IMG/VR virus record: IMGVR_UViG_3300030616_000008
Location: 1 to 43,203 of that record
DNA: 43,203 nucleotides
Origin: a virus
Reading direction: 5' to 3' (one strand)
Shown piece after piece: positions 2,711 to 27,907 of the stretch; positions within the stretch are counted from its first letter, which is position 1; every line of letters starts with the position of its first letter. The translations under genes and the position numbers were made by a program. Below the pieces are notes generated by a model. The model searched no databases. It was not told where the DNA came from and saw only the letters and a list, made by a program, of their open reading frames with translations.

Positions 2711-3354
2711 TGACTGTAACAAATCCGAGACCAGTATTTGGAACTGCAAAGACAACTGATTCTACTCCATATAATGTTAATGGTGGTAAAGTTATAATAT
2801 TTAATGCAACTACAAACTCAAAAGTTATATTCGGTAAAATAGTAAATGGTTACTATATGATAAATGATATAGCAGAGATATATAGAGATAATGATACTGA
2901 TACATTTACGATAAAAAGTTATGAAACAAATGGAGATTATGCAGGTGAACGTTCTTTTAATTATCCACGCTATCATACTGGTATGTTCAATATAACATTA
3001 GATAGAATATTAAAATGGAGTATAGACAACATATATTTAAGAGAGCCAATAAATATTACAACAATAAACGTATCTACATTAATGAAGACAAATTTAAGGG
3101 ATGAAACGTATGAACTACATCCATTTGGAATTGGAAAACGTAGTTTACAGCTAATAGGTAAAGAAGATAGAGATGGACCAGATACAAGTGAGTCATTTGA
3201 CCTTGTAGATGATTTGCGTGGTAAGATTGGAGATGAAGTTACTATAGCAAACTTACAAGATGATATAGATGGGATATGGAGATTAAAAAATATTGATTTT
3301 GATTCTATGGGTAGACCTGATATGTATAAATATACAATAACATTTGAAAGATAG
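2710..3354 (+). CDS. Putative distal tail/baseplate protein
   Basis: 214 residues, all-beta in appearance, with no export signal. Its last ~35 residues share the pattern of the preceding protein's end, so the two genes probably arose by duplication of a tail-tip module with different front domains. It overlaps the preceding stop (TAATG). I do not recognise a named family; a Dit- or Tal-like role is plausible from gene order only. Confidence 0.5.
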   Translation: MTVTNPRPVFGTAKTTDSTPYNVNGGKVIIFNATTNSKVIFGKIVNGYYMINDIAEIYRDNDTDTFTIKSYETNGDYAGERSFNYPRYHTGMFNITLDRILKWSIDNIYLREPINITTINVSTLMKTNLRDETYELHPFGIGKRSLQLIGKEDRDGPDTSESFDLVDDLRGKIGDEVTIANLQDDIDGIWRLKNIDFDSMGRPDMYKYTITFER

Positions 3355-3364
3355 GGGGTCTTAT

Positions 3365-3706
3365 ATGAAAGGTAGGAAAAGTACAAGAAAGATTTTAGAT
3401 AAAAGAATGCAAAAAATTAATGAAGAAAAGATGTTAAGTGATATACCTAGTTCTGCAGATGAAAAATTAAATAAGATATCTGTTGATATTGCAACAATAA
3501 AAGCAAATGTTACTGAAAATAGAGATGACCTCAAATTCATAAGAAAAGAGTTATTCGGTAATGGAGATAGGGGTTTAGTTTCTACGGTAAGAGAATTAAA
3601 TACTGATTATTCAATACATAAGGCAAATTTAAAAACTTGTATAAAAGTAGGAATACCAGCTTTAATAGCTGTTGTAGCAATCATAGTTACTATTTTAGTG
3701 ACATAA
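3365..3706 (+). CDS. XhlA-like membrane protein (holin-associated)
   Basis: 113 residues: basic N-terminus, central coiled coil with the pattern IATIKANVTENRDDLKFIRK followed by ELFGNGDRGL, then one C-terminal membrane helix (about residues 91-110). This order and the motif match the haemolysin XhlA family, found next to holins in Bacillus-type phages. The start at 3365 has GGGGG (3354-3358) before it; an in-frame TTG at 3344 lies inside the previous gene. It is paired with another small membrane protein, as in lysis cassettes, but I see no endolysin nearby. Confidence 0.65.
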   Translation: MKGRKSTRKILDKRMQKINEEKMLSDIPSSADEKLNKISVDIATIKANVTENRDDLKFIRKELFGNGDRGLVSTVRELNTDYSIHKANLKTCIKVGIPALIAVVAIIVTILVT

Positions 3707-3720
3707 TAAGGAGGTATGTT

Positions 3721-3963
3721 ATGGATATACCAATAACACCTGAATTAATCGCAGCATTAGTTACAACCATAATGACATTATTGGCTGCACTAGGTGGTGC
3801 AAAATGGAAAAAATATAAGAAACTTGCAATAGAGTTTGGAGAAGCATTATATGTAACCACTGATGCAATAAAAGATGATACTGTTACTGTGGATGAAGCA
3901 AAGCGATTAATTAAAGAGTGGGAAGAAGTCATAGAACTGGCAAAAGAACTGTTCGAAGATTAG
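3721..3963 (+). CDS. Small holin-like membrane protein
   Basis: 80 residues with one N-terminal hydrophobic helix (about residues 9-25, ending LAALGGAK), then a basic patch and a charged amphipathic helix. The start at 3721 has a strong AAGGAGG site. Size and layout fit phage holins of the LL-H/Bacteroides type, and it follows the XhlA-like gene by 14 bases. An alternative is a scaffold that holds the giant surface protein encoded next. A T-rich stretch at 3973-3988 may partly end transcription here. Confidence 0.55.
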   Translation: MDIPITPELIAALVTTIMTLLAALGGAKWKKYKKLAIEFGEALYVTTDAIKDDTVTVDEAKRLIKEWEEVIELAKELFED

Positions 3964-4005: not shown

Positions 4006-7000
4006 ATGGAATTTATATTAATATTAGCTATATCATTAATAGCTGCAGCGAGTGTTGTAGGTATTATGTACTACTATAGAGATAAGTTAAATACTTATAA
4101 AAAACAAATTATTGCAATATTAGTTGCATTTGGAATAATATCAGCACCATTTATGCTTATGGAGGGCCCAGAATCTGGAGAATTCGGTTATAATGCATCT
4201 GGTGATGGATGGACTGTTATCAATAATAGACAGGTGGCGACATGGGGTTTAGTAAGTGATGGTGATGGTGAAGTTGATTGTATATATGCATACATGCATG
4301 GATATGCAGGAGGTAGTTCTCAATTTGATGTAAAAGGTGCATTATATACATATAATGGTGATGCTGACCCGGTTGATAAAATAGCAGAAACAGAGGAAAA
4401 AACAAATCTTATAATAGGTGATAGTGTAAATAGATGGGTACGACTTAATTTTTCAAGTCCACCAAGTGTAACAAATAATACAAAATATTTTATTGCTTTA
4501 ATGGGAAATCTGGATAGTGGAGCAGGTATCGGTTTAATGGCACAAAGTGGTGATAGTGGTTATTCTGTTTATTGTACACAAACATATGAGGATGGGTTTG
4601 AAGACCCGTGGGAAGATGATACTGGAAGTAGTTATCATAGATGTTTGTATGCTTTATATACACCAAGTGAAGCAGGATGGGTTAATTCCAATCCAGTAAA
4701 TTTAAATCCTGACCCTCAGAATGGAAATACAAGTGTTGACGTTCAGACAAAATTAAGAATTGTAGTAAATGATTTAGATGATGCAAACCAAAGTATGAAC
4801 ATTACTTGGAGTAGTAATTCATCAGGGACATGGCAAGTATTTGGTATAAACAATAGTGTAAGTAATGGAACATATTATCAGAACAATATAAATTTCACTG
4901 GTTATGGTAAGAAGTATTACTGGAATGTTTCAACAAATGATGGTGCAGGAGGATGGGATAATGATAGTTATTCATTTACAACAAGGAATATATTGATTGA
5001 AAAATGGAAATTTAAAATAAGAGACTATGCACCAAATACATATTGGGGTGTAAATAATACATTTACATCAAGGGTTATTCCAATAGGGGCTAATGTAATA
5101 GGAAATGAAAATATGGAATTGTTCTTTTCATCAGGATATTATGATAGTGACACTGCTAAAAAATGGGGAATAATCGTTTGTGTGAATGGGTCAGATGGAA
5201 CAGAAATTTGGAATTATAGTAATGTAGGAATCGGTTGTCATGCCTGTGTTGAGTTAGGGGATTGTGATAATGATGACGATTTGGAAGCTATTATTTGTGG
5301 TTATTATGAAGTAAGATGTGTTCATGCAGAAAATGGAACATTGCTATGGAACTATACATCTACTTCAAGGATGGATAGACCACCAATAATATATGAGATT
5401 GACGGAGAGGATTATGTTTATCATTCCATTAACAACTTTTATGATTTATCTATTCCATATTTGAGAAAGGTATATGGAAGCAATGGAACAGAAGTCGTTA
5501 ATGTAAGCACTGGACAAACCCCATGTAATGGAGGATTAGCAGCAGCAGATGTTAACAATGATGGAAAATTGGAGATTATAAGTACAAGTAGGGATGACCC
5601 AGAAGGAGATGGATTACAATGTTACGATGAAAATCTTAATCTATTATGGAGTTATGATAATGTCAGTTGTTCTGGAGGGACTCCTGCAATAGTGGATTTT
5701 GATAATGATGGATATTTGGATATCTTAGCATTTGAAACGTCAGCAGGTAGTGCATGGATAGGTGTTGTTGACGGTGAAACAGGAAATATTATGCCTGGAA
5801 AATGGAACAGTTCTGAAAATATGACATTGTATGTACATGATACACCAACTATAAATGATATTGATGAGGATGGAGATATTGAAATTTATACTCAAAGAGA
5901 AGGTAATGATAAGATACAGGTTTGGGATGCTACAAATTGGAAGTGGGAAACAAATTTAACTGAAGCTAACAATACAAAGTCACTTCAGAATCCAGTTATG
6001 GCAAATGTGTTGGGTGATTCTTCGTTAGAAATCATACATTCAAGTTCTGGAAGTGTTTATGCTGATAGAGGATTAAGATTTTGGAACAAAACAAATAATT
6101 TTATTAAACAAGAAGTAACTGCTGTATTTAATTATTTTATAGTTGATGATTGCGACAATGACAATATGAATGAGTTATTTGGATTTTCGACATATAACGG
6201 TGTTGGAGGATGGGTTGTTGCATATGATACGGATGGAGAAACACTTGGGGCTGATATTGAAAATATGTATTATTCGAAACTTAGAAATTCTGTTGAGGAA
6301 TTTTTTAGTGGTAATCCACCTGCAATAAGAAATCCAAATCCAGATAATCTTTCGATTGCTATAGAATTGACACCAATATTAAATGTTACTGTAGATGATG
6401 TTGATACTAATACACTCAATGTAACTTGGCATAGTAATAGTAGTGGAACATGGGAATTATTTGGTATTAACAATAGTATTGATGTAAGTAGTGGGTCAGT
6501 AAATATAGTTCAAAACAATTCTAATTTTTCAGCATATATAACAAAATATTATTGGAGTGTTAATGCAACAGATGGTATTTATTGGACAAATAGAACATAT
6601 AGCTTTACAACAAAATTGACACCATACTCTAATTCACCACCTGTTATAACACCACATTATAAATTTACTAACAATTCTATAGATAAAAGAATAGATGCAG
6701 TAATAAAAGTAAACATAAGTGACCCAAATGGAAATTTAACTACAGTGAAATGGTATAGATATTGGGATGGTACATATCATCATGTACAAACAAATGTTAG
6801 TGTTGGAAATGAAACAGTATCGTATGATAGAGTTTCAGTATACTGGTATCATAATGATATTAACTGGTATGTAGATGTTACAGATGAATATGATAATGTG
6901 TCTAATTACTGGCAAAGATTTTGGACTATGTATAATGTTGAGCCATACGTACATGATTTTACAGTTAATGGTACAGGTAATAATTCAGTAGATGTAATAA

Positions 7001-10000
7001 GATGGCCTAGATTAGAAATAGAAGTTAACGACAATACAAGTCATATGGGAGATGATTTTACAGTATATTGGAGTACAAACGGAACTGGAATATATCAAGC
7101 CAATGTGAGTGTATATAATGGCACATATGTAGACCTTAATTGTAGTTTTGCAGATAGCTATAGTACAAAATATTATGTACAAATATATGCAAATGATACT
7201 TGTAACCCACAAGATGAAGAAGGAAATACAAGCAGATGGTATACATTTACAACAAAAGCAGAACCATCAGGACCACCATATGTAGATTTACCACCAACAA
7301 TAAGTAATCCTCAACCAGCTAATAATTCATGGGATGTAAATAGAATTAACCATGTTGCTATAGATGTGGCTGACCCAAATGGTAATGATAGCTTATCTGT
7401 AAAATGGTATCGCTGGTTTTCAGGATGGAGTTTAGTACAAGAGAATACATCATTCGGTTCAAACGGTACGTGCAGATGGAATCATGGTGATTTTGGATAC
7501 GGTCAAGAAGTTAGATGGTATGCAGAAGTAAGTGATGGAAGTGGAGGTAGTGCAAATACAACAAACGAATGGATGATATTTCATGCAGAAAATGAATCGG
7601 CACCACCACAATATTATTCAAACATATATTATGTTGGTACAAATGGAAGTGATTCAACTGGTACAGGAAGTAAAAACAATCCTTGGCGTCATATTGACTA
7701 TGCATGGGAAAGTGGTACGGGACCATGTATAATAAATATATATGCTGGTACATACGATGAAAAGGTATATAAAGATTCTTCAAATGATGCTATAATGTCA
7801 GGTAATACAACACATCCAACAATAATACGACCATTTGAAAATGATTATGTTGTATGGAAAGAAGGTAACGACAGTTCAGATAGTGGATGTTTAAAGACAA
7901 TGAGAGTGCATGATTTAATAGTATGTGGTATACATTTCAAAGATGGTGCATATCATGGTGTATTCTTTGGAAATTCTGTATCAACATATTATGCACATAA
8001 TCTAAGTGTAATTGATTGTACATTTGATAATATGTCATGTAGTGCAATTAAGTTTAATGGTTATTCAAATAGAATAAGAGATGTTGCTGTAGAAAGATGC
8101 ATTACTGATGAGATTAATAACTGTTGGAGTGGTGTAAATTCACAAGAAGGAATCAGCTTTAGTAAAACAGACTGGGGACGAGTTAATGATACAATAATGA
8201 GCAACGGTCATAAAAACAATATAGACGTTAAATCAGGAAGTTCACATATTGAAATATATGATTGTATGATTAATACATCACATGGATGGACACCAGTACT
8301 TGTAAATCCTTGGAATTCTGGTGGTGGAATATATTTTGATGCTTATGGAAGTTCATCAAGTTGGAATAGTGCACATAATAATTTCATATGGGGAAACTTT
8401 AGCTGTATACACATGGGAAGTGAATTAGATGATGGTAGTAATGCAGGATGTAATAACAATACAGCATACAATAACATATTAATAGTAAATCAGTCACCAC
8501 ATTATGCACACTTTCCAGCATATCTACAAGGAACACAGAATCCATCATCAATGGAAGCGCAAACTAGATACTGTTCATTCTATGGAAATACGCTCATCGG
8601 TGGAGAAAGTAGCTTTGGAGTATATAACGATTGGGAAGATATAATAGGATGTAACTTTAGTGATAATATATGTGAAGGTCCAGATACATTTTCAATAAGA
8701 TTACAAGATGGTAATTCATATCCAGGATTAGCAGTATATAACAATCTATTCAATAAAACAAGTGAGAAATATGGAGAACATCCAGTTAATGGTAGTCCTT
8801 TACTTAAAGGAAGTGGTAGCGACCCATACAACTTGAGTGCAACATCACCAGCTATAGATGCAGGTGGAGATTTTGGAATATATGAAGATTATGCGTATAC
8901 AACAAGACCAATTAATGGAGTATTTGATATAGGAGCATACGAAAGATTATATGTTGCAGGATGGGTAAATACACCACCTACACAAAGTGATTTCAGAGCA
9001 AACGGACATACTAATAATAGTGGAGGTGTACCAAGATGGCCAAGATTGAATATAACTACAGCAGATGCTGATGGTAATGCAACAAACATATATTGGAGTA
9101 CAAACGGAAGTGCAAACTATCAAGTAAACTTAAGTTCAGCCAATGGTACATACAGAGACCTTAACTTTAGCTTTGCGTCATCATGGAATACAAAATATTA
9201 TGTAACAATATCAGTTAATGATACACATGAAAATGTTACGAGATTGTATACTTTTACAACGAAACCAAAGCCGTATGTAAACTTACCACCAACACAAACT
9301 GATTTTAAAGCTAATGGTCATGCTAATAATAGTGGAGGAGTTCCAAGATGGCCTAGATTAAACATAACAACTGCAGACCCAAATGGAAATACAACTAATA
9401 TATATTGGAGTACAAATGGAAGTGCTAATTATCAGTCAAATCTGAGTGTAGTTAATGGTACATATAGAGATTTAAACTTTAGTTTTGCATCATCATGGGA
9501 TACTAAGTATTATGTAGAAATTGCAGTAAATGATGGATGGGAAAACATATCAAGATTGTATACATTTACTACAAAACCAAAACCATATGTAAATTCACCA
9601 CCAGTGCAAAGTGATTTTAAAGTAAACGGTACTGGAAATGAAAGTACTAATGTTATAAGGTGGCCAAGGATAAATATAACTACATCAGACCCAAATGGTA
9701 ATGCTACTAATATATATTGGAGTACAAATGGTAGTGCAAACTATCAATCAAATTTAAGTTCAGTTAACGGTACATACAGAGACCTCAACTTCAGTTTCGC
9801 TTCAGCATACGACACAAAATACTATGTAGCAATTGCAGTGAATGATGGATGGGAGAATATATCTAAATGGTACTGTTTTACAACAAGATTAAAACCAAAT
9901 CCAAATGATGAACCAGTACAGAGTGATTTTAAAGTAAATGGTACTGGAAATGAAAGCACTAACGTAATAAGATGGCCAAAAATAAATATAACCATAAGTG

Positions 10001-10959
10001 ATGCAGATGGACATAATATGAATGTATACTGGTCTACAAATGGTAGTGCTAATTATCAGACAAATTCTAGTGTTGGAAATGGTACATATCGTGATATTAA
10101 CTTTAGTTTTGCATCTTCATATAGTACTAAATATTATGTAAGAATAAATGTAAGTGATGGCATAGTAACTACACCAAGATGGTATTGCTTTACAACAAAG
10201 GCTGCACCATCACCACCAGCAGGAAATCCACCAGCATTTAGTAATGAATTTCCAGACAATAGAAGTAAGGGTGTATCATTAAAGCATACTGCATTTACTA
10301 TTGATATAAATGATGCAGAAGGGGATAGTTTCGACTGGACAATACAATCACGTGGTTTTTCATCATCAGCCAATGGTGCAAGTAATGGTACAAAATCACT
10401 TACAATGAATCTTCATCCAAATACAAATTATACAGTATATGTAAATGCTACAGATGGTGTATATACTAGAGAAACATTCTGGTTCTGTACAACATTTAAC
10501 TCTAGCATATCTGTTGATGGATTGAATAACGGTTATGTTACATTTAAAGGATGGTCTACAGCTGGTTATAATCAAGTATGGTGTAATAGCACTGGTGCAA
10601 GTGATGATACATTAAGATGTACAATAACATCAAATGAAACATACAAAATAACAAGAATGAACATAACAATACATGATATGAATGACACAGGTGCAGACAT
10701 ACCATCAGAGAACATACACGTATATGCAAGTATTGATAACATAACATATTACAACTTTAGTAACAATGCTGGAGATGGAACTGATGTAATGATTGACGCT
10801 TCAACATGGCTTGCAGGTGATGACCCATTTGAAATAACTACAAATACAACTATATATGTTAGATTTAAGCTTATAATACCTACAGGCTTAGCACAAGATA
10901 TGTATTATGGTGTGGGCGGGGATAGGTGGTCTATTACAATAACTAGAATGCCAAAATAA
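4006..10959 (+). CDS. Giant membrane-anchored multi-domain glycoprotein (putative host-binding fibre)
   Basis: 2,317 residues, 16% of the genome. Order: two N-terminal hydrophobic helices (about 2-21 and 34-54); a lectin-like beta region to ~220; an Ig/Fn3-like domain (224-327); an FG-GAP/VCBS-like propeller region (330-766) with calcium-loop motifs such as ADVNNDGKLEI and VDFDNDGYLDI; four more Ig-like domains (769-1195); a right-handed beta-helix of pectate-lyase type (about 1206-1650) beginning YYVGTNGSDS; four tandem ~103-residue repeats (1657-2065) each with WSTNGSANYQ; another Ig-like domain and a C-terminal beta domain. About a hundred N-X-S/T sequons are visible, so it is probably exported and glycosylated by an archaeal host. 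It likely binds the cell surface, either as a tail fibre or as a protein displayed on the infected cell. GGAGGT at 3993 sets the start. Confidence 0.7.
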   Translation: MEFILILAISLIAAASVVGIMYYYRDKLNTYKKQIIAILVAFGIISAPFMLMEGPESGEFGYNASGDGWTVINNRQVATWGLVSDGDGEVDCIYAYMHGYAGGSSQFDVKGALYTYNGDADPVDKIAETEEKTNLIIGDSVNRWVRLNFSSPPSVTNNTKYFIALMGNLDSGAGIGLMAQSGDSGYSVYCTQTYEDGFEDPWEDDTGSSYHRCLYALYTPSEAGWVNSNPVNLNPDPQNGNTSVDVQTKLRIVVNDLDDANQSMNITWSSNSSGTWQVFGINNSVSNGTYYQNNINFTGYGKKYYWNVSTNDGAGGWDNDSYSFTTRNILIEKWKFKIRDYAPNTYWGVNNTFTSRVIPIGANVIGNENMELFFSSGYYDSDTAKKWGIIVCVNGSDGTEIWNYSNVGIGCHACVELGDCDNDDDLEAIICGYYEVRCVHAENGTLLWNYTSTSRMDRPPIIYEIDGEDYVYHSINNFYDLSIPYLRKVYGSNGTEVVNVSTGQTPCNGGLAAADVNNDGKLEIISTSRDDPEGDGLQCYDENLNLLWSYDNVSCSGGTPAIVDFDNDGYLDILAFETSAGSAWIGVVDGETGNIMPGKWNSSENMTLYVHDTPTINDIDEDGDIEIYTQREGNDKIQVWDATNWKWETNLTEANNTKSLQNPVMANVLGDSSLEIIHSSSGSVYADRGLRFWNKTNNFIKQEVTAVFNYFIVDDCDNDNMNELFGFSTYNGVGGWVVAYDTDGETLGADIENMYYSKLRNSVEEFFSGNPPAIRNPNPDNLSIAIELTPILNVTVDDVDTNTLNVTWHSNSSGTWELFGINNSIDVSSGSVNIVQNNSNFSAYITKYYWSVNATDGIYWTNRTYSFTTKLTPYSNSPPVITPHYKFTNNSIDKRIDAVIKVNISDPNGNLTTVKWYRYWDGTYHHVQTNVSVGNETVSYDRVSVYWYHNDINWYVDVTDEYDNVSNYWQRFWTMYNVEPYVHDFTVNGTGNNSVDVIRWPRLEIEVNDNTSHMGDDFTVYWSTNGTGIYQANVSVYNGTYVDLNCSFADSYSTKYYVQIYANDTCNPQDEEGNTSRWYTFTTKAEPSGPPYVDLPPTISNPQPANNSWDVNRINHVAIDVADPNGNDSLSVKWYRWFSGWSLVQENTSFGSNGTCRWNHGDFGYGQEVRWYAEVSDGSGGSANTTNEWMIFHAENESAPPQYYSNIYYVGTNGSDSTGTGSKNNPWRHIDYAWESGTGPCIINIYAGTYDEKVYKDSSNDAIMSGNTTHPTIIRPFENDYVVWKEGNDSSDSGCLKTMRVHDLIVCGIHFKDGAYHGVFFGNSVSTYYAHNLSVIDCTFDNMSCSAIKFNGYSNRIRDVAVERCITDEINNCWSGVNSQEGISFSKTDWGRVNDTIMSNGHKNNIDVKSGSSHIEIYDCMINTSHGWTPVLVNPWNSGGGIYFDAYGSSSSWNSAHNNFIWGNFSCIHMGSELDDGSNAGCNNNTAYNNILIVNQSPHYAHFPAYLQGTQNPSSMEAQTRYCSFYGNTLIGGESSFGVYNDWEDIIGCNFSDNICEGPDTFSIRLQDGNSYPGLAVYNNLFNKTSEKYGEHPVNGSPLLKGSGSDPYNLSATSPAIDAGGDFGIYEDYAYTTRPINGVFDIGAYERLYVAGWVNTPPTQSDFRANGHTNNSGGVPRWPRLNITTADADGNATNIYWSTNGSANYQVNLSSANGTYRDLNFSFASSWNTKYYVTISVNDTHENVTRLYTFTTKPKPYVNLPPTQTDFKANGHANNSGGVPRWPRLNITTADPNGNTTNIYWSTNGSANYQSNLSVVNGTYRDLNFSFASSWDTKYYVEIAVNDGWENISRLYTFTTKPKPYVNSPPVQSDFKVNGTGNESTNVIRWPRINITTSDPNGNATNIYWSTNGSANYQSNLSSVNGTYRDLNFSFASAYDTKYYVAIAVNDGWENISKWYCFTTRLKPNPNDEPVQSDFKVNGTGNESTNVIRWPKINITISDADGHNMNVYWSTNGSANYQTNSSVGNGTYRDINFSFASSYSTKYYVRINVSDGIVTTPRWYCFTTKAAPSPPAGNPPAFSNEFPDNRSKGVSLKHTAFTIDINDAEGDSFDWTIQSRGFSSSANGASNGTKSLTMNLHPNTNYTVYVNATDGVYTRETFWFCTTFNSSISVDGLNNGYVTFKGWSTAGYNQVWCNSTGASDDTLRCTITSNETYKITRMNITIHDMNDTGADIPSENIHVYASIDNITYYNFSNNAGDGTDVMIDASTWLAGDDPFEITTNTTIYVRFKLIIPTGLAQDMYYGVGGDRWSITITRMPK

Positions 10960-10976: not shown

Positions 10977-11927
10977 GTGAAACTTCTCAGAGTGATAGTT
11001 GTAGTGCTGTCTTTAATGACATTCATACATACTGTCGCTTCTGATGATACAACTTATGACTTTAACATTAAAGTAGATAACAGAGGTGAATATCAAGAAG
11101 ACACAGTATTTGTATTTTCAGTGAGTGTAGATGTAGAAGAAGATGCAACACCACCAAATACAGATACTACTTTCTATTTTAAAACTAGTGCTGATGTTAG
11201 AGTAGGTGGTTTATCAACAGAAGAAACAGTATATTTCAAAGTACGTGCAGAGGTAGTAAAATTAGCAAATCTAACAAACATGACAGTAAGACGTGGAGGT
11301 GTAGATTATTTCATATGGTATGGACAGAATGATACTAGAGCAACGTGGATTGTAAACAAACATTTCATTGGAGAAACAGGATATATTGCAAGATGGCTTC
11401 CAGATTATGTATATAACTATACAATAGATGGTGGAAATTATACAGGTAATATAACTCCAGATTGGAACGGAACCGATGACGGATTAAACAATAACAATGG
11501 TACAAACTGGCTAGTTAAAAGTGGATGGTATAAATATCAATTAAATGGAAGTGGAATAGATTTTAGAGTAAATACCTACGATGTAATAATGGTAGATTTA
11601 GGTGGCACAGGAACACTTACAATATCAATGCAAAATGACAGTGGATTTGACTATACAGCATCACGAAATATAACATTAACAAATCAAAGTGGAGCACCAC
11701 CATGCAGAAATTATGGTTATAATTATGTTGGGTATAGTGGTACACCAAAGAACGTTGAAGATTTAGTTACAATATCTACATTCCAATGGATAGCAAGATG
11801 GAATCAAACTACTCATGTATGGAATATATGGATAAAAGGTTTTCCATTTACACAAAATTATACAGTAAACTTATATGACGTTTTAGCCTTAAAAGTAGCA
11901 CAAACGAGATATTTAAATATAACGTAA
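10977..11927 (+). CDS. Secreted glycoprotein of unknown function
   Basis: 316 residues with GTG start after AGGAGG (10964). A cleavable signal peptide is clear (LLRVIVVVLSLMTFIHTVAS, residues 3-22). The mature part is beta-rich with many N-X-S/T sequons and resembles surface-layer-like archaeal proteins in composition. It is the last gene of the late block, 17 bases after the giant glycoprotein, and may be its partner. There is no membrane anchor at the C-terminus. Confidence 0.6.
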   Translation: MKLLRVIVVVLSLMTFIHTVASDDTTYDFNIKVDNRGEYQEDTVFVFSVSVDVEEDATPPNTDTTFYFKTSADVRVGGLSTEETVYFKVRAEVVKLANLTNMTVRRGGVDYFIWYGQNDTRATWIVNKHFIGETGYIARWLPDYVYNYTIDGGNYTGNITPDWNGTDDGLNNNNGTNWLVKSGWYKYQLNGSGIDFRVNTYDVIMVDLGGTGTLTISMQNDSGFDYTASRNITLTNQSGAPPCRNYGYNYVGYSGTPKNVEDLVTISTFQWIARWNQTTHVWNIWIKGFPFTQNYTVNLYDVLALKVAQTRYLNIT

Positions 11928-13114: not shown

Positions 13115-13211
13115 CTAATTTTACCTCCTTAAATATATATTCTATTGCTTCTTTCGATGTTGTTAATTTTATATCTGTTGGACAACTTGCAATAGGTATT
13201 AATTTAGCCAA
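13089..13211 (-). CDS. Small protein with TTG start
   Basis: 40 residues beginning TTG GCT AAA, with AAGGAGGT 5 bases upstream (13218-13225). No ATG is available in the frame. The sequence (AKLIPIASCPTDIKLTTSKE) is not low-complexity, and the gene overlaps the next start by 26 bases. Function unknown. Confidence 0.5.
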   Translation of the reverse strand: MAKLIPIASCPTDIKLTTSKEAIEYIFKEVKLDECRIKPR

Positions 13212-13223
13212 TTTTTAACCTCC

Positions 13224-13655
13224 TTAAAATAATACAATACATATTACTATACCAGTGAATATAGTAAATATATATACTACATTCTTAAAGAACATATACG
13301 TTTTCAATAGTAATTCATCTCTGTATGCTAATTCATATAATCCATAACAATACTGCATTAACATTATTGGAAATATTGATATTGTATATGTAGAATTAGC
13401 CAATATTGTCAGAGCTGTTGGTATCATCAGAATTGTTCCAGAAAATAGTCCACCTGCTACAAGGAATATCCTACGTTCCTGTTCTGTTAATGTACCTGCA
13501 TATGTTGTTCTTAATGATGGAATCTTTCCATGCCACCATAGTTCTATTTTTGCTGGTTTATCTGTATAATGTTCTGCTGTCATCTTATGTCCTATTTCGT
13601 GTACAATCATTGATATGAAAAAGTATAGTATAAATAAGATTATCTCTACAATCAT
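13224..13655 (-). CDS. M50-like membrane metalloprotease candidate
   Basis: 143 residues, four or so hydrophobic helices. The first helix carries IVHEIGHKMTAEHY, the HExxH zinc-binding motif placed at a membrane segment as in site-2 proteases (M50). The later NxxPxxxLDG motif of classic M50 enzymes is not obvious; YGLYELAYRDE (about 103-113) is the only acidic candidate for a third ligand. It may be a reduced intramembrane protease that cuts a host or viral membrane protein, or a degenerate homologue. It overlaps the helicase gene by 4 bases (ATGA). Confidence 0.6.
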   Translation of the reverse strand: MIVEIILFILYFFISMIVHEIGHKMTAEHYTDKPAKIELWWHGKIPSLRTTYAGTLTEQERRIFLVAGGLFSGTILMIPTALTILANSTYTISIFPIMLMQYCYGLYELAYRDELLLKTYMFFKNVVYIFTIFTGIVICIVLF

Positions 13656-15106
13656 TTTTCACCTCCTTTTCTTTCATCTTTTAATTCACCTTGTTCTAAT
13701 TTATTTAGAAAATCATCTACTGGTGAATAACTATCTTTCCAACGTAGATTTTCATATACTCTACTAGTTTGACCTATTCTTTTTTCAACTTTTATTTTTA
13801 CTGTATCTAATATATCTATCAATCTTCTACTAAACAAAGTTTTAGTCATATATGGAAATGATTTTTCCTTTGCCCATTTAACATATCTTTTGTATACATC
13901 TTCAGTGCTTACTGTGCAATCGCTGTCTTCAACTAGATATTCTTCTATAAATGCAACTTCTGGATTTGATAACAATTCATAAAGTTCATCATCTTCATAC
14001 AAATCTGTTTTTGTAAAGTCTCCATTTTGTCGGAGTCTGTATAAGCCTTGGATTGCCCAATTAAAGAGTCCTGACCGTTCATCTTCTGTGCATATTATGT
14101 CTGCAAGCCCAATCTTGGTCTTACTATCTCCTCTTGGAAACGTCCTTGAAAATATTATTATTTTCCACCTCTGGTAAAACGCATAACTTGTATCATTAGT
14201 CTTTGGAATCTCGTTTGCATTGAATATTAACTTTGCATAGTTTTTGAAATTGAATGTTCCCATGTATTTGTACATACCTGATATATCGTCATCACCAGTT
14301 AATGCTTTAAATCTTGCTGAGTCTGATATTGTCCGTGATGATATTTCAGTGCAAATGTTAGCCATTTTTCCATACAAGTCTGCCGTTGCAAATCTATCAG
14401 ATACTAAGTCATGTAGTTCTCGTGTGCTATAGTTATCTTTTCCTATAAGTTTCTTTAAAAGATTTACACACGTTGATTTACCATTTCTTCCTCTACCATA
14501 CAATATAAATGCTACAGGATAATGGTACTTTCTAAATAGTGTATATCCAAACATCTCTTGTACAACGTCTATGTATTTCTTATACTTGCCTGGAAATATC
14601 TCTTTCATGAACTGTTTTATCTTTGGACAATCTTTATCTTTATCGTATGTTACTGGTAATTGATTTACAAATCCATATTTTGGACTATGTGGTAATAGCT
14701 TGTCGTTGTCTATATCGTATACACCATTTTTAAGACATAGAAAATTCAAATCTGGTTCAAATTCATCTCTATAATGTATGCTGTCGTCTTTTATAAAAGT
14801 TAGCGTTTCTGATTTTCTTATGTTATTAGTCTTTTCTTCTAAAAGTTCGTTTATAAGTTTGCGTATTATTGCTTCTCCACCGCGATGATAGTATCCTTTT
14901 TTATAATATACTATCTCTGATTTGTTCGTTGTTTTGTCCACAAGCGTTTTGAAGTGATAACCATATTCTTTCATTATCATCTTCGCAAGATTCGCTGTAG
15001 TAACTTTTATTCTACCACTAGGCGTTTCTTGGTATACATCGTACTCTCGTAATAGGTCTTCTACTTTTGCTCTACGTAACAGATATTCAACTGCGTTTAC
15101 TGCCAC
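13652..15106 (-). CDS. SF3 helicase, D5/P4-type replication protein
   Basis: 484 residues. A D5_N-like region (about 60-190, with LCLKNGVYDI) precedes an SF3 ATPase core: Walker A YGRGRNGKST (203-212), the B region around KMANICTEISS (247-257), motif C LIFNANEIP (293-301) and an arginine in YQRW (313). A winged-helix-like end follows. Such proteins open DNA and drive replication in poxviruses, P4-like elements and many archaeal viruses. The primase domain found in longer relatives is absent from the first 60 residues, so priming must come from the host or another gene. GTG start with AGAGGAA upstream. Confidence 0.88.
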   Translation of the reverse strand: MAVNAVEYLLRRAKVEDLLREYDVYQETPSGRIKVTTANLAKMIMKEYGYHFKTLVDKTTNKSEIVYYKKGYYHRGGEAIIRKLINELLEEKTNNIRKSETLTFIKDDSIHYRDEFEPDLNFLCLKNGVYDIDNDKLLPHSPKYGFVNQLPVTYDKDKDCPKIKQFMKEIFPGKYKKYIDVVQEMFGYTLFRKYHYPVAFILYGRGRNGKSTCVNLLKKLIGKDNYSTRELHDLVSDRFATADLYGKMANICTEISSRTISDSARFKALTGDDDISGMYKYMGTFNFKNYAKLIFNANEIPKTNDTSYAFYQRWKIIIFSRTFPRGDSKTKIGLADIICTEDERSGLFNWAIQGLYRLRQNGDFTKTDLYEDDELYELLSNPEVAFIEEYLVEDSDCTVSTEDVYKRYVKWAKEKSFPYMTKTLFSRRLIDILDTVKIKVEKRIGQTSRVYENLRWKDSYSPVDDFLNKLEQGELKDERKGGEK

Positions 15107-15442: not shown

Positions 15443-15643
15443 TTATTGAGACTTTTTATGTCTTTTAACTTCATCTGGCATTACCTCTTGATTTGTGAAA
15501 AATAAATACCAAAATTCTGAGTCTGTACTTATCACTTCATCACCATCGTCTAATATTATGTATTTTCCTGATGGTTTTGTAACAGTTGGTATGTTATCTT
15601 CTAGTATTTCTTTCTCTAAATCGTCTAGTTCGTCGTCACTCAT
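15443..15643 (-). CDS. Small acidic protein
   Basis: 66 residues beginning MSDDELDDLEKEI. The start at 15643 is chosen for AAGGAGAG 8 bases upstream; the frame extends to 15706 but that part lies inside the glutaredoxin-like gene. Acidic N-terminus, then a beta-like YIILDDGDEVISTDSEFWY segment. Unknown function. Confidence 0.55.
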   Translation of the reverse strand: MSDDELDDLEKEILEDNIPTVTKPSGKYIILDDGDEVISTDSEFWYLFFTNQEVMPDEVKRHKKSQ

Positions 15644-16029
15644 TTTGTATCTCTCCTTATTAATTCCATTGAACGTAATGCTGACATTATCTCTGATATA
15701 CCACATAGTTTTCTACCATCAGGTGTTATCACAAATGGTGCTAATTTTGGTTTCTTTCCAAACTTTATTTTATTTCTCATTAATATTTTTTTCAAATCGA
15801 ATATTGTAACTTCTTTATAATCATATTCTACGTTTAATTCATCTAATGCTTTTAATAGTTGCTTACAATTATGACACGTTGCTAGTCCAAATACTTGAAA
15901 CTTTGTAAGTATGTCATCACGTTTCTTTTTACACACTATGCAAGTTCCATTGTCATCTAATTCTTCTGGTGTCAATCCTGTGATATGTGATTTTAGATGT
16001 TCAAACCATATCTCATCTTTGGTTTTCAT
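15640..16029 (-). CDS. Glutaredoxin-like thiol-disulfide protein
   Basis: 129 residues. A CIVCKKK pair is followed by a thioredoxin-fold domain: beta strand FQVFGL, active site ATCHNC, helix KQLLKALDELNVEY, and the cis-proline segment APFVITPDG. This is the glutaredoxin/NrdH layout of about 75 residues, so it could reduce host ribonucleotide reductase or another disulfide during infection. Start at 16029 (ATG); an in-frame GTG at 16038 is possible. It overlaps both neighbours by 4 bases. Confidence 0.75.
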   Translation of the reverse strand: MKTKDEIWFEHLKSHITGLTPEELDDNGTCIVCKKKRDDILTKFQVFGLATCHNCKQLLKALDELNVEYDYKEVTIFDLKKILMRNKIKFGKKPKLAPFVITPDGRKLCGISEIMSALRSMELIRRDTK

Positions 16030-16163
16030 CCTATCCACACTCTATCGTCTAATTCTCTGATATATGTTATAGTACCACCTGTATGGTAAGGGTCTGATAC
16101 ATATTCAACTTCTTTATCTGGGTCACATTTCTGTAGTAATTCAATCAGCTTATCTACTTTCAA
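16026..16163 (-). CDS. Small conserved phage-type protein with TTG start
   Basis: 45 residues starting TTG AAA GTA GAT, with a strong AGGAGGTG site 4 bases upstream. The opening MKVDKLIELLQKCDPDKEVEY fits a widespread small phage family with the pattern LIxLLxxxDPDxEV. Function of that family is unknown. No ATG exists in the frame, so the TTG start is well supported. Confidence 0.65.
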   Translation of the reverse strand: MKVDKLIELLQKCDPDKEVEYVSDPYHTGGTITYIRELDDRVWIG

Positions 16164-18307: not shown

Positions 18308-18808
18308 TCATGGCATTGACTCTCCCTTGTATTTAAATATTATTTCACCTGTTATGTCTATGCTTTTACATACTAATGTATTGTTGTAATACTCTGGTGC
18401 TATTATCAGCGTTGTACAGTTTAATTCTAATGTTGAACTACCATTAATTTGCAATCTTTGACACGTTATTACATTTAATTCGTTTGGTAATCTTACTATT
18501 GTATCTGAATTATAAAAGAATACAAAATATCCTTTATGTCTTTCAAATACATTTGAATCTACGTATCCTTGCACTGGCTTATATTCATATATATTATTTA
18601 GTACCAATGAGTTTTCTACAGCGTCATTCCATGTATATATCTCATCTCCTACGGCAACTATCGTTGCATTTTTATTTATTGTTTCTGGTAATGATATGAT
18701 ATTCCAGCCTCTGTCTGTACCTATGGGACTAGGTAATGGTGGGCTATCAATACATCCAGACATTACTCCTAGTATACAGACCATAATTACACACATCTTC
18801 AATTTCAT
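18308..18808 (-). CDS. Secreted lipoprotein
   Basis: 166 residues. Signal peptide with lipobox VMSGC (cysteine 19), so a lipid-anchored surface protein. The mature part contains GWNIISLPETI and KGYFVFFYNSD, a beta module common in archaeal surface proteins, and several N-X-S/T sequons. It stands alone: a strong terminator lies just upstream (18809-18848) and the structured region just downstream, and it has no ribosome site, so it probably has its own promoter or a leaderless transcript. A role in superinfection exclusion or host-surface change is a guess. Confidence 0.7.
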   Translation of the reverse strand: MKLKMCVIMVCILGVMSGCIDSPPLPSPIGTDRGWNIISLPETINKNATIVAVGDEIYTWNDAVENSLVLNNIYEYKPVQGYVDSNVFERHKGYFVFFYNSDTIVRLPNELNVITCQRLQINGSSTLELNCTTLIIAPEYYNNTLVCKSIDITGEIIFKYKGESMP

Positions 18809-23946: not shown

Positions 23947-24156
23947 TTAGATATAGTCGTCTACAAGTTTTCGTAATTTTTGTTCAATATCTACTGCTTT
24001 TTCCATTGACCTTTCGTATGTAGATATAAAGTATTTCATTGTTAATATCTTTTCTCCTATTGTTACACAGTATTTATCAAGTAACGCAAATTGTTCTTCT
24101 GAATATTTCAGAAACTCATCTGAATCTACTTTTAACATTTTTCCTTTTTCTACCAT
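23947..24156 (-). CDS. Small helical protein
   Basis: 69 residues, helical, no motif. ATG after AAGGAGATGAAAG. Unknown. Confidence 0.5.
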   Translation of the reverse strand: MVEKGKMLKVDSDEFLKYSEEQFALLDKYCVTIGEKILTMKYFISTYERSMEKAVDIEQKLRKLVDDYI

Positions 24157-24168
24157 CTTTCATCTCCT

Positions 24169-24414
24169 TTATTCTATAATTTTTATTCTTCCAAGACTAT
24201 CTGTTTTTATGCCAAAATGTAACGGTATCCCTCTGTATAACAGCATTCCTTCATCTGTTATTTTTGCTATAAAATAGCCAATTTCATCTTTGTCGTTAAC
24301 ATCTTTTATTTTAAGTATTATATCATTTGACATATCATCTCTTGTTAGATATATTAATGCATTCTTTGGTGTTGTGTCCTCTTCTTTTAGTATTAAATTC
24401 ACTTTCTTATCCAT
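24169..24414 (-). CDS. Small beta protein
   Basis: 81 residues, strands dominate (VNLILKEE...ALIYLTRDD...DIILKIKDV). Strong AGGAGGTGAAAG site, which also ends the zinc frame upstream. Unknown. Confidence 0.55.
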   Translation of the reverse strand: MDKKVNLILKEEDTTPKNALIYLTRDDMSNDIILKIKDVNDKDEIGYFIAKITDEGMLLYRGIPLHFGIKTDSLGRIKIIE

Positions 24415-24417
24415 CTT

Positions 24418-24519
24418 TCACCTCCTATACATCTGATTACATATCGTACATTTACCATTAGTATGATACGTAGTAGTTTTACATTTCTTACAATATTTAA
24501 CTCTAGTTGTCGTATATAC
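24418..24519 (-). CDS. Zinc-ribbon frame without a standard start codon
   Basis: YCKKCKTTTYHTNGKCTICNQMYRR is a clear CxxC...CxxC ribbon that ends inside the next ribosome site. Upstream, the frame has a stop at 24525 and no ATG, GTG or TTG before the ribbon. The only nearby ribosome-like site is AAGGTGAG. Translation could start at GTA (24519) or ACG (24513), or the gene may be decayed. Confidence 0.4.
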   Translation of the reverse strand, partial: VYTTTRVKYCKKCKTTTYHTNGKCTICNQMYRR

Positions 24520-24550
24520 ACCTCACCTTGTATATATGGATGGGGGAGTA

Positions 24551-24991
24551 TTAATCCCCACCCTGATCTTCTACATAGTCGCTGTAGTATTTAGCCACTT
24601 TGTAAGCTGTATTTCTCCTCACTCCAAACTTCTTATTTTTGTATCCCATTATGTTCAGTGAGTTGTTCAATCCACTTACGTCTTGACTTGCTTTCTCTTG
24701 TCCTACTTCAATCATGCCAGCTTGTAACCCAATCTTCTCTAATACTAGATTGAGTTTTCCTATTGGTATATCGAAACGTCTACCGTGTTTGTCGCTGCCG
24801 CCACCTTTTTCACATAGTTTGTCCATGAAGTCTATTAGTCTTTGTGCACCTTCTTGGTTCTGTTCCAATGTTATCCATCTTCGCCCAGATGATGTTAACT
24901 GTACTTTACTATCCAACACTTCGTTGAAAAAGTCCTCATCATCTAATATTTCATCTATACCAGCGTCTATTTCACTATCTTTTTTTGCCAT
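24551..24991 (-). CDS. Conserved early protein, paralogue 2
   Basis: 146 residues. Acidic start, then SGRRWITLEQ...RLIDFMDKL...SDKHGRRFDIPIGKLNLVLEKIGL...GLNNSLNIMGYKNKKFGVRRNTAYKVAKYYSDYVE. The same framework recurs in gene 26476-26880, so the two are duplicates. Strong AAAGGAGGT site and a palindrome upstream (25018-25029). The basic RR/KK core suggests binding to nucleic acid, but no named family comes to mind. Confidence 0.65.
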   Translation of the reverse strand: MAKKDSEIDAGIDEILDDEDFFNEVLDSKVQLTSSGRRWITLEQNQEGAQRLIDFMDKLCEKGGGSDKHGRRFDIPIGKLNLVLEKIGLQAGMIEVGQEKASQDVSGLNNSLNIMGYKNKKFGVRRNTAYKVAKYYSDYVEDQGGD

Positions 24992-25017
24992 TTAGTTTTT
25001 ACCTCCTTTGTCATCTA

Positions 25018-25029
25018 ATCATATATGAT
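25018..25029. promoter_or_regulatory. 12-bp palindrome (possible operator)
   Basis: ATCATATATGAT lies 27 bases before the start of gene 24551-24991, overlapping a TATA-like core. It suggests regulated transcription of that gene. Confidence 0.4.
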
Positions 25030-25055
25030 GACTCTAAATTATTCATATTGCTTTA

Positions 25056-25166
25056 TTATTTTGTATTTCTAGTTTTTGTTCCACATCTTTCACATACAAA
25101 ACCTTTAGCAACAATCACATAATCATCACACTTAGGACAATATTCAATATCTGGTTCTTCCCACAT
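25056..25166 (-). CDS. 36-residue zinc-ribbon protein
   Basis: IEYCPKCDDYVIVAKGFVCERCGTKT: complete ribbon. Starts one base after the previous stop. Third gene of a short cluster behind the promoter at 25600. Confidence 0.6.
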   Translation of the reverse strand: MWEEPDIEYCPKCDDYVIVAKGFVCERCGTKTRNTK

Positions 25167-25167
25167 C

Positions 25168-25320
25168 TTAATCACGTTTCTTCCACGTTGGTGGTATACT
25201 TATAAGTTCACCTTGTTCTTTCTTACGTTCCCACCATGTTTTTGTGCCATAATATTTAACCTTAATTTTATGTATATCACTTTGTTGAAAATGTACAATA
25301 AAATCATCATCATCATTCAT
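25168..25320 (-). CDS. 50-residue basic protein
   Basis: MNDDDDFIVHFQQ start, then KIKVKYYGTKTWWERKK and a Pro-containing basic tail. Its ATG overlaps the upstream TGA. Unknown. Confidence 0.5.
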   Translation of the reverse strand: MNDDDDFIVHFQQSDIHKIKVKYYGTKTWWERKKEQGELISIPPTWKKRD

Positions 25321-25496
25321 AATGTATCTCTCCATATAGTAGGTAGTTCTATCAACTTCTTTACCTCACCACCATTTCCACATACGGGACATATACCACT
25401 ACCTAAAAGTATACTTCTATATGTTTCACACTTGGTACATATATATGATACTAATGTACCAGCTTCAGTTAAACCTTCGTATATTTCAATCAACAT
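25317..25496 (-). CDS. 59-residue zinc-ribbon protein
   Basis: YICTKCETYRS...GSGICPVCGNGGE ribbon. GAGGTAAAC upstream, and a TATA box 100 bases before (25600-25607) is a fitting promoter. First gene of a three-gene cluster. Confidence 0.6.
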   Translation of the reverse strand: MLIEIYEGLTEAGTLVSYICTKCETYRSILLGSGICPVCGNGGEVKKLIELPTIWRDTL

Positions 25497-25599
25497 TGTT
25501 TACCTCATTTTGTGCTACATCCCTTTTGTGCGTTGGTGCATTATTATATCTGGGTAGATTTGTTAATAACACATTCAACTATACACTGGTTTACAGCGT

Positions 25600-25607
25600 T
25601 TTATATA
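25600..25607 (-). promoter_or_regulatory. Candidate TATA box for the 25.0-25.5 kb zinc cluster
   Basis: TATATAAA on the minus strand in a 244-base gap (25497-25740). Farther upstream in the gap lies a near-perfect palindrome, CTGATAT-AC-ATATCAG (25687-25702), and ATATCAGTTAT occurs at 25623 and 25697; these may be operator sites. Confidence 0.5.
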
Positions 25608-25740
25608 CGACACACACACCAAATATCAGTTATTTTTTATTTATATTTGTGCACTAATACATATATATGTGGATGGGATGATACACCTGATATACATATC
25701 AGTTATACACTATATACCAACAATACAAACAATCATATTT

Positions 25741-25863
25741 TTATTTGTGCTGACACTTCAACACTCTATTCTTGTAGCTTTCTTTATATGCACAGTATTT
25801 ACAATTCTCCTCTTTTGCCACCGTACCAAATAAGCTACATTCTATTAAATTCTTTGTTTTCAT
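25741..25863 (-). CDS. 40-residue cysteine protein
   Basis: ECSLFGTVAKEENCKYCAYK...LKCQHK, four cysteines plus a histidine, likely one zinc. GGAGGCAAAACGA upstream. Confidence 0.55.
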   Translation of the reverse strand: MKTKNLIECSLFGTVAKEENCKYCAYKESYKNRVLKCQHK

Positions 25864-25899
25864 TCGTTTTGCCTCCATCAATACAAACAACCATACAGT

Positions 25900-26289
25900 T
25901 TATAGAAAGTTGTTATTTTTACCGTAGTTGTTTACATATCCTTTATGTTGTTTCTCATTTTCTATCCAAAGAGATATATCTTCTAGTATACATATTACTT
26001 CTATTTTGTACATTGGTATTTTAATGTTGTCTATCCTATAAATCATTTTCACATTGTTATCTTTGAATTTCTTAAGTTTGTCTATGTTTCTGTATAATAT
26101 CTTTTCAGTTATATTGTCTCCACGTACGCTTAATATCTTTTTACCGTATTTGTGTTCTAATTCTCGTATTCTCATTATCTTTGGTTTATTTGCTGTTTTT
26201 ATACAATCTTTGAATATATCTCTTAAGTCTTTGTCTACCATTTTGTATGCTTTGGATAATTCTATTTCTAATTCTTCTATTGTCGGCAT
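25900..26289 (-). CDS. Unknown protein
   Basis: 129 residues, Lys/Ile-rich and basic, with helices and an ILEDISLWIENE segment near the end. GAGGAGAAAG upstream, inside the small gene before it. Unknown function. Confidence 0.55.
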   Translation of the reverse strand: MPTIEELEIELSKAYKMVDKDLRDIFKDCIKTANKPKIMRIRELEHKYGKKILSVRGDNITEKILYRNIDKLKKFKDNNVKMIYRIDNIKIPMYKIEVICILEDISLWIENEKQHKGYVNNYGKNNNFL

Positions 26290-26381
26290 TTGACTTTCTC
26301 CTCTTTTTTGTGCTTGAATACTAAAATCAAATTTCTACTTTTTGTGAGTCTTTCTTCTACTTCTATTTCTGTTTCTGTCAT
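26277..26381 (-). CDS. 34-residue charged protein, tentative
   Basis: MTETEIEVEERLTKSRNLILVFKH...: short acidic helix and beta strand. No strong ribosome site, but its end overlaps the next start and carries that gene's site, as for other genes here. Confidence 0.4.
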   Translation of the reverse strand: MTETEIEVEERLTKSRNLILVFKHKKEEKVKCRQ

Positions 26382-26449
26382 TTGTGCAACCACAACCATA
26401 TTCCTATTTTGTGCTTTCGCACATTCCTTTTAACCACCATGACGTGTAT

Positions 26450-26484
26450 TTAAAAAGTAAGGAAAGTAGTTTTGTCTACTTCCC
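26450..26484 (-). terminator. Hairpin terminator after paralogue 1
   Basis: GGAAGTAG (minus strand) pairs with CTACTTTCC around a 6-base loop, followed by a T5 run. It overlaps the stop region of gene 26476-26880. Confidence 0.6.
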
Positions 26485-26880
26485 TGCTGATTCCACATAA
26501 TCCATGTAGTATTTTGCTGTTTTGTAGTTTGTGTGTCTACGTACGCCTAGTTTTTTGTTTGTATACCCTAGTATGATTAAGCTATTGTTCAATCCTGCGA
26601 TATCGTTACTTGCAACATCACTTCCTACAGAAATCATATTGTCAGGAAAACCACATTTGTGCAAGACTTCATTTAGTTTTTCTATTGGTATATCAAACCG
26701 TCTACCATGTTTATCACTTTGTCCAGCTTTCGCTGTAATTTTGTCCATAAAGTCTATAAACTTTTGTGTCCATTTTGGGTGTGCTTCTGCTACTTCCCAG
26801 CGTCTACCACCTGAACTTAGTGGTACTTTTGTCTGAATGACTTCGTTAAAGAAATCATCATCTAACAAATTGTCTGCCAT
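26476..26880 (-). CDS. Conserved early protein, paralogue 1
   Basis: 134 residues, clearly homologous to gene 24551-24991: shared DDFFNEV, SGRRW, FIDFMDK, SDKHGRRFDIPI, GLNNSL, LGYTNKKLGVRRHTNYKTAKYYMDYVE. It has its own terminator and a TATA-like stretch at 26931-26945 upstream, so it is transcribed as a single unit. Highly expressed early proteins often have such a layout. Unknown function. Confidence 0.65.
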   Translation of the reverse strand: MADNLLDDDFFNEVIQTKVPLSSGGRRWEVAEAHPKWTQKFIDFMDKITAKAGQSDKHGRRFDIPIEKLNEVLHKCGFPDNMISVGSDVASNDIAGLNNSLIILGYTNKKLGVRRHTNYKTAKYYMDYVESAGK

Positions 26881-26995
26881 ATTATTACCTTCTGGACTAT
26901 TTGTCCATATTCCTTTTATACTCTTATGGGGAATATAAAAAGTATTAACCTTTGTCTACATATCCATGCAAAATTAAAGAATAAAAAGAGATGTT

Positions 26996-27307
26996 TTAAT
27001 CTAGTTTTGATATCCTTTTGTGTATTAGTAGAAAAAACACTAATTCTTTTAACAACATCACTTCATCATTTGTCAGTTTGGTTATATCTATATCTATACT
27101 ATTATCACATTCTAAGCAAAGTTGATATAACTTTAATTCTATTTTTTTGTCTTTATCTCTTATAAAGATAAATGCTGAATCAAAATCACATTTAGTTGCT
27201 TCACCAAACCATATTGTGCAACCTCTACCTTCGTCTAGTCTATCGCTATATTTTTGTTCTTCTTCAGTTATTAATAATTCTTTGTCTATTTTTACTTTTG
27301 TTATCAT
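26996..27307 (-). CDS. First early gene, unknown protein
   Basis: 103 residues, acidic, with CTIWFGEATKC and LCLECDNS cysteine pairs and a hydrophobic helix (EVMLLKELVFFLLIHK) near the end. AAGGATAAC upstream. It is nearest the divergent control region, so it is likely expressed first. Unknown function. Confidence 0.55.
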   Translation of the reverse strand: MITKVKIDKELLITEEEQKYSDRLDEGRGCTIWFGEATKCDFDSAFIFIRDKDKKIELKLYQLCLECDNSIDIDITKLTNDEVMLLKELVFFLLIHKRISKLD

Positions 27308-27530
27308 GTTATCCTTCTCTTTGGCTATTTTGCCTTATGGTGTAGATAGGTTAATAAAAAGTAAGAATATGGTTGTTTGTATTGTCAGTATTACCAACAG
27401 TACATATAGTATATTGTCTACCACCACGTGAGAGCTACTCTTTCGTATAATGTATATCTTATACTTATTGTGGGTTTATGTAGTATTCTACTATACTGTA
27501 TTGTTTTGTGCGTGTGTCATTTCGTACTAA
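27308..27530. other. Non-coding upstream region of the early block
   Basis: No supported gene. It holds small palindromes such as GTAGTATTCTAC (27480-27491) and AT-rich TATA-like stretches (CTTTTTATTA on the minus strand near 27345), so the early promoter is probably here, but I cannot point to one convincing box. Confidence 0.4.
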
Positions 27531-27660
27531 GTAGGGTTTTGTGTAGGCATACCCTACGCTACCGAGTTGCGTACCCTACTCATGCCTACCCGTAGGGCGT
27601 GGTATCGGCGTTAAGCCAAATCCACTCTCGGCAAGGTTACATCAACTAGGGGGTATATAA
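27531..27660. other. GC-rich self-complementary block
   Basis: About half G/C in a genome that is otherwise mostly A/T. GTAGGCAT (27543-27550) pairs with ATGCCTAC (27582-27589); inside, TACGC (27555) pairs with GCGTA (27569). CCCTACG (27552) can also pair with CGTAGGG (27591), and CCGAG (27562) with CTCGG (27627). GTGG/CCAC plus GGC/GCC form another hairpin (27599-27624). Such islands in AT-rich archaeal genomes are often structured RNA. Alternatives are an origin structure or recombination site. Confidence 0.55.
27654..27660 (+). promoter_or_regulatory. Candidate TATA box (plus strand)
   Basis: GGGGG then TATATAA, the same layout as at 1156-1170. It points into the repeat region, where no gene follows for a kilobase, so it would make a non-coding transcript or a replication primer. 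Confidence 0.35.
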
Positions 27661-27807
27661 ATGTTGCTATTATATCTTTTTATTTTACACAACTTATGTT
27701 ATCTATTTTGTACTTTAGTTTACATATGTTATATATAATCAATTTATATGATATCGTGCCAATGATAAGCATTGTCTTTTAGTGTGTTGCTTAACTACCT
27801 TTACCCT

Positions 27808-27879: not shown

Positions 27880-27907
27880 AACCATTCAAACTTTGTGCAA
27901 ACTGTTG

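Follow-up and report, generated by a model that had tools for sequence, protein, structure and literature searches.

Tailed viruses of sheathed archaea are known to encode exported look-alikes of the surface-layer proteins of their hosts (SH proteins), which are proposed to disturb the envelope at egress (Medvedeva et al. 2024, PMC11576556). For the archaeal tailed virus HFTV1, the receptor is probably a surface-layer protein (PMC9973310). Here we analysed IMGVR_UViG_3300030616_000008, a tailed-virus contig of 43,203 nt taken at its full length (hereafter the window), and in particular its giant gene at 4006-10959 (+). The predicted product is probably a virus-encoded mimic of a surface glycoprotein of Thermoplasmatota, and it is likely to be held by a membrane hairpin, to carry N-glycans on the outside and to be exposed at the surface of the infected cell. 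In principle, look-alikes of host surface proteins are already known from viruses, and the family of anchored proteins to which this one belongs is a variant thereof; no description of such a family was found in a literature search, subscription journals being mostly outside its reach.

The gene is an open reading frame uninterrupted by stops, with an ATG start and the sequence GGAGG 8 nt upstream, and codes for 2,317 amino acid residues, as had been noted in a first, sequence-only reading of the window. The protein begins with a helical hairpin (4009-4161), consisting of transmembrane helix TM1 (residues 2-24), the basic loop YYYRDKLNTYKKQ and TM2 (residues 33-52). Hydropathy peaks in 19-residue windows start at residues 1-6 and 32-37 and nowhere else in the protein, confirming the two N-terminal membrane helices claimed in that reading. 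Since the loop between TM1 and TM2 is basic (RDKLNTYKKQ) and its flanks are acidic, both ends of the hairpin are predicted to lie outside by the positive-inside rule. The arrangement is shared with the viral relatives described below, of which the members with a complete N-terminus start with at least one hydrophobic helix, followed in turn by a lysine-rich stretch (for example WIKKNxKK), a helix and acidic or proline-rich sequence, the anchors of L062 and L063 being the most divergent. Leave-one-out hairpin profiles recovered 10 of 11 hairpins. With the leave-one-out hidden Markov model (HMM) of the hairpin, the window, with its helix, basic loop and helix, ranked after all family members and ahead of every non-family open reading frame (11.2 versus 7.5 bits). 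The C-terminal transmembrane segment seen in several cellular relatives is absent from the viral members. Against 390 Thermoplasmatota genomes, the hairpin profile gave only fragmentary matches, similar to signal peptides or polytopic proteins, which suggests that TM2 was derived from a signal peptide and TM1 added to it. Besides its short family member (697 residues), L066 encodes a second, shorter protein of 483 residues (13131-14579) with the same N-terminal hairpin, apparently without the conserved C-terminal domain of the family, and the anchor may thus be regarded as a separate module.

The resemblance of TM2 and its lysine-rich lead to host signal peptides also fits an unanchored protein, of which signal peptidase would cut the chain after TM2, the freed ectodomain coating cells or acting as a soluble factor; the neighbouring product of 10977-11927 is itself secreted. 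We consider this outcome quite improbable, as no cleavage motif is conserved across the hairpins and the conserved TM1 ahead of TM2 would lack an evident purpose.

The anchored protein is a mosaic of extracellular domain types. Behind the hairpin are located, all on the same strand, an N-terminal ectodomain (residues 56-222, 4171-4671), with 30% identity to the corresponding part of the protein of the viral relative L029 (E=7e-12); immunoglobulin (Ig)-like domain A (residues 223-327, 4672-4986); an FG-GAP/VCBS β-propeller (residues 328-768, 4987-6309); Ig-like domains B-E (residues 769-1204, 6310-7617); a right-handed β-helix with a choice-of-anchor-Q end (residues 1205-1650, 7618-8955); Ig-like repeats F-I (residues 1651-2071, 8956-10218), which are 61-84% identical to the first by repeat comparison; and Ig-like domain J with C-terminal domain K (residues 2072-2317, 10219-10956), residues 1878-2312 being similar to the L059 protein (E=1e-25). 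When the propeller segment was scanned alone, its FG-GAP repeats scored over the Pfam cut-off (FG-GAP_3, E=6e-10, 40 bits against 26.9), in agreement with the VCBS-like propeller proposed from sequence. The Ig-like repeats had likewise been recognized, their number, estimated at about nine, being ten by a single profile that matches all of them. For the β-helix, choice_anch_Q scored above cut-off, and the AlphaFold model, with a predicted template modelling score (pTM) of 0.74 and a mean predicted local distance difference test (pLDDT) of 65, consists of repeated short strands; the best PDB matches by Foldseek are right-handed β-helices, with the HK620 tailspike on top (E=2.5e-5). Positions of E, D and K are kept between the viral and host β-helices, with no mapping to any known active site. 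Of the domain-wise structure prediction that had been recommended, the β-helix was thus accessible; the model of the C-terminal domain (pLDDT 45) was unusable. A PHROGs search with the glycoprotein gave no match.

Searches for homologues of the whole protein in phages and in viral contigs retrieved no relatives, and neither did the tail protein or terminase as queries in viral contigs. Because the whole-protein searches were empty, domain profiles were needed. The Ig profile detected L003 (contig G001), and a second form of it detected L029 (G392) and L030 (G393). The L029 protein (3,173 residues) is, by its layout, orthologous to the window protein, comprising the hairpin, the N-terminal domain, two propeller blocks, Ig domains and two β-helices; its propeller blocks are about 28% identical to the window protein over 730-740 residues (E=5e-48 and 4e-52). 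The anchored proteins of G001, G392 and G393 all terminate in a domain that the window encodes on the next gene, a feature overlooked in the sequence-only reading. A profile of this C-terminal domain (C-domain) led to eleven viral loci, and the family now totals twelve viral contigs including the window, two of them near-identical. Its members, 700-3,200 residues in size, combine the helix-basic loop-helix anchor, a variable ectodomain of host type and the conserved C-domain.

The window protein itself does not end in the C-domain. This domain is found at residues 98-316 (approximate) of a separate secreted glycoprotein at 10977-11927 (+), which has its own GGAGG and signal peptide and 15 N-glycosylation sequons against 4.6 expected. 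Its product matches the C-termini of the three anchored proteins with E=8e-12 to 9e-22 and the C-domain profile with E=2e-58, the profile including that sequence. From these comparisons, the window glycoprotein is classified as a split variant of the family, with the C-domain on the next gene. A frameshifted end of the glycoprotein was considered for this reading frame and rejected, given its own GGAGG, start and signal peptide. Elsewhere in the window, a predicted lipoprotein with lipobox VMSGC (18308-18808, -) shows a 'GWNIIS...GYFVFFY' pattern that recalls the C-domain.

The side of the membrane on which the ectodomain lies can be approached from its sequons, because an ectodomain exposed to the archaeal oligosaccharyltransferase should carry N-glycosylation sequons above chance. 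The window glycoprotein contains 115 sequons, in line with the hundred or so estimated before, against 45 ± 5.8 in shuffled sequences (z=12.4) and 55 copies of the reversed motif; outside the repeated Ig block, 63 are present against 29. This enrichment is a family property, with z-scores of 9.4, 9.2, 5.3 and 2.7 for other members and of 11.1, 7.9, 7.2, 4.5, 3.3 and 2.6 for members on later contigs. Among fibres, tape measures and capsid proteins encoded by these viruses, z mostly stays within ±2, the main exception being one fibre (3.3). Calibration on host loci gave 22 forward against 22 reversed motifs for cytosolic proteins and 420 against 280 for secreted ones. Since sequons are enriched in the family proteins and not in most tail, capsid and tape-measure proteins, the ectodomain very probably crosses the membrane. 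As an observation on the glycans of one relative, the contig G393 (115.8 kb) has a run of about 19 genes (L042, 211-17845) resembling sugar-nucleotide and glycosyltransferase enzymes, including by sequence look a sialic-acid synthase-like protein, nucleotide-sugar dehydratases and glycosyltransferases, and this virus may make its own glycans.

We also take the sequon pattern as the best evidence against a tail fibre assembled in the cytoplasm. As a virion appendage, the protein would be a fibre or spike with its hairpin buried in the tail tip until entry, when it would insert into the membrane of a new host cell, and with a β-helix and propeller that bind or cut surface glycans. The gene indeed belongs to the late head/tail cluster, where it is often flanked by the tail-fibre and tape-measure genes, the fold of the β-helix is most like those of the HK620 tailspike and further glycan-active helices, and conserved ends around a variable middle are a fibre-like pattern. 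We nevertheless regard such an appendage as unlikely. Such strong sequon enrichment sets the protein apart from the fibres and tail proteins encoded by these viruses, several relatives have canonical fibres on genes of their own, a positive-inside loop flanked by acidic residues suits a membrane anchor, and comparable β-helices are part of host surface proteins, too. The position of the gene varies as well. In the closest relative of the window, G395 (L064), of which the major capsid protein (MCP) is 42% identical and the portal, connector and tail proteins are homologous, the glycoprotein gene is located between the capsid and connector genes, while its place in the window is behind the tail genes; the gene thus shifts position between otherwise similar genomes. 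Display on the cell is favoured over a tail fibre because of the sequon enrichment and this unfixed gene position. The argument, raised in the sequence-only reading, that membrane helices are unusual at the start of tail fibres was judged sound. Of the two locations offered there, display on the infected cell gained support from the conserved anchor, the sequon enrichment as a sign of selection for membrane passage, the cellular surface homologues and the separate tail-fibre genes in several relatives. Incorporation into virions after secretion is disfavoured, as the viruses are tailed, have no envelope and assemble in the cytoplasm, and as their fibres and tail proteins, except for one, lack sequon enrichment.

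The host-type character of the ectodomain points to Thermoplasmatota as the likely host. The profile searches for host homologues covered the Thermoplasmatota, and the domains of the window protein match surface proteins in 38 of the 390 Thermoplasmatota genomes. In the best match, residues 237-914 (678 residues) share 35% identity with a stretch of a 5,402-residue Thermoplasmatota surface protein (E=8.5e-69); β-helices like that of the window are also present in host surface proteins. The sole locus confirmed in a motif scan of about 85,000 species genomes is from Thermoplasmatota. A search for a link through spacers of clustered regularly interspaced short palindromic repeats (CRISPR), with window positions 24001-43203 against the 390 genomes, yielded nothing beyond AT-rich matches of about 23-58 bp at noise level.

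A matching gene pair is present in the viruses and in Thermoplasmatota genomes. In 10 of 10 relatives, the gene directly 3' of that for the glycoprotein codes for a small protein (B) that is CarboxypepD_reg-like, with Pfam matches below the curated cut-off, and has no signal peptide; this gene usually overlaps or abuts the glycoprotein gene. In Thermoplasmatota loci chosen for their weak C-domain matches alone, a profile built only on viral B matches the secreted product of the gene that immediately follows one for a large C-domain surface protein. An N-terminal hydrophobic segment is present in 10/10 cellular B proteins (104 sequons against 74 reversed) and 0/10 viral ones (24 against 42). 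The host cluster was read out in two genomes (L092, L093), where gene A is followed by B and by a third gene. Host A codes for a NosD-type helix and PKD/Ig protein with signal peptide and C-domain. Host B contains FN3, PKD and a type I dockerin (Dockerin_1, E=9e-10 and 1e-8), and the third product is anchored by a hydrophobic C-terminal stretch; for L093 alone, a Cohesin domain (E=8e-14) was also detected in it. Dockerins bind cohesins. From the adjacency of their genes, we infer that A binds B. Most simply read, these sequence relationships would mean that a host pair of surface proteins was acquired by the virus, in which the first partner came to carry an anchor of its own.

The pairing of C-domain and B in both host and virus also fits a narrower form of display, namely superinfection exclusion by a receptor decoy: the protein would imitate the host receptor, a C-domain surface protein, and bind the adhesins of incoming virions non-productively. 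Viral B, without signal peptide and depleted in sequons, would remain inside the cell, perhaps to become part of the virion, with viral A on the outer side. This role is possible rather than probable, as the binding of A to B is deduced from gene order only, the late-region position fits egress better than exclusion, the window has no B, and in HFTV1, an archaeal tailed virus tested in this respect, no exclusion of superinfection was seen at attachment (PMC9973310). Likewise tentative, and to be held at about the same low likelihood, is a captured-pair model, in which the small partner is now without its former export signal and part of the virion, the anchored large partner covers the cell without the host scaffold, and host and virus surfaces dock via the captured interaction.

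For display on the infected cell in general, the following course of events may be proposed. The glycoprotein would be made late, its two-helix N-terminal hairpin inserting into the cytoplasmic membrane, and the ectodomain would be N-glycosylated outside and shown on the cell. The host surface protein would be held via a dockerin-bearing partner and a cohesin-bearing membrane protein; the self-anchored viral version could occupy the surface without this dockerin-cohesin scaffold and so displace host surface proteins. The resulting host-like coat might loosen the envelope for egress, mask receptors against superinfection, or both. Several points weigh against this proposal. The match of the window anchor alone is weak (E=0.02), the transmembrane calls are based on hydropathy and conservation and not on a trained predictor, and the signal-peptide-like TM2 leaves cleavage and release possible. 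A displayed receptor-like protein could trap progeny virions. In addition, the window is without partner B downstream and has its C-domain on another gene, and the pair model is not directly applicable to it.

The remaining gene content of the window is that of a tailed virus. Terminase, portal and capsid genes were identified by PHROGs and the tail-tube gene by Pfam. The ends of the contig are identical over 127 bp, and the tape measure spans them. A biological terminal repeat is doubted, because identical 127-bp ends were also found in the contig of a relative; the ends are probably the assembler k-mer overlap of a circular contig. Upstream of the glycoprotein gene are located, as judged by eye, a small protein with a C-terminal hydrophobic stretch (3344-3706, +; candidate lysis or membrane protein) and a holin-like small membrane protein (3637-3963, +; likely start ATG at about 3721), for which the family search gave no match. 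On the opposite strand are a weak membrane zinc-peptidase-like match (13224-13655), a D5-type primase/helicase (13652-15106), a glutaredoxin-like protein under the Pfam cut-off (15640-16038), and paralogues of 146 and 134 residues (24551-24991 and 26476-26880), an apparent duplication. Among the relatives, the portal gene of G001 (L005, 3869-6301; 810 residues) has an apparent intein-like insert, with HINT-type sequence in the middle of the protein, and G395 has tandem near-identical short units (L071, 3693-4073), of which one frame reads NCTIxxCL repeats.

Viral alteration of archaeal surfaces, especially in the uncultured Thermoplasmatota, is almost unknown territory, and the anchored family together with the matching host gene pair makes a concrete system for testing which protein belongs to the virion and which to the cell, and if the host pair acts as the receptor. 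The design looks common among archaeal viruses for rebuilding the cell surface, and the hairpin and C-domain profile may serve as a marker for related viruses and point to their hosts. The captured-pair model would be new, if true.

Compared with known systems, the family resembles the SH proteins (PMC11576556) in being an archaeal tailed-virus look-alike of a host surface protein. The SH proteins were, however, sought at 150-350 residues and are of amyloid type with signal peptides, whereas the members of this family are hairpin-anchored mosaics without sheath core from viruses of other hosts, and the window protein, with 2,317 residues, a hairpin and other domains, departs from them in the same way. 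With tailspikes and fibres such as that of HK620, the window protein shares the late gene region and a right-handed β-helix of glycan-binding type, a feature that is unspecific; it differs from them by the membrane hairpin, the sequon enrichment and the Ig and propeller domains of host surface type. Its domain repertoire is that of archaeal surface proteins with FG-GAP, NosD-type helices and PKD/Ig repeats, which have a signal peptide and/or a C-terminal transmembrane segment, in contrast to the N-terminal hairpin of the viral protein. In the Thermoplasmatota cluster A-B-C (L092, L093), as in the viral family, a large β-helix/Ig protein ending in the C-domain is followed by a CarboxypepD_reg protein, but host A, with its signal peptide, lacks an anchor of its own, host B is a secreted protein with FN3 and dockerin, and a third, membrane-anchored gene product follows.

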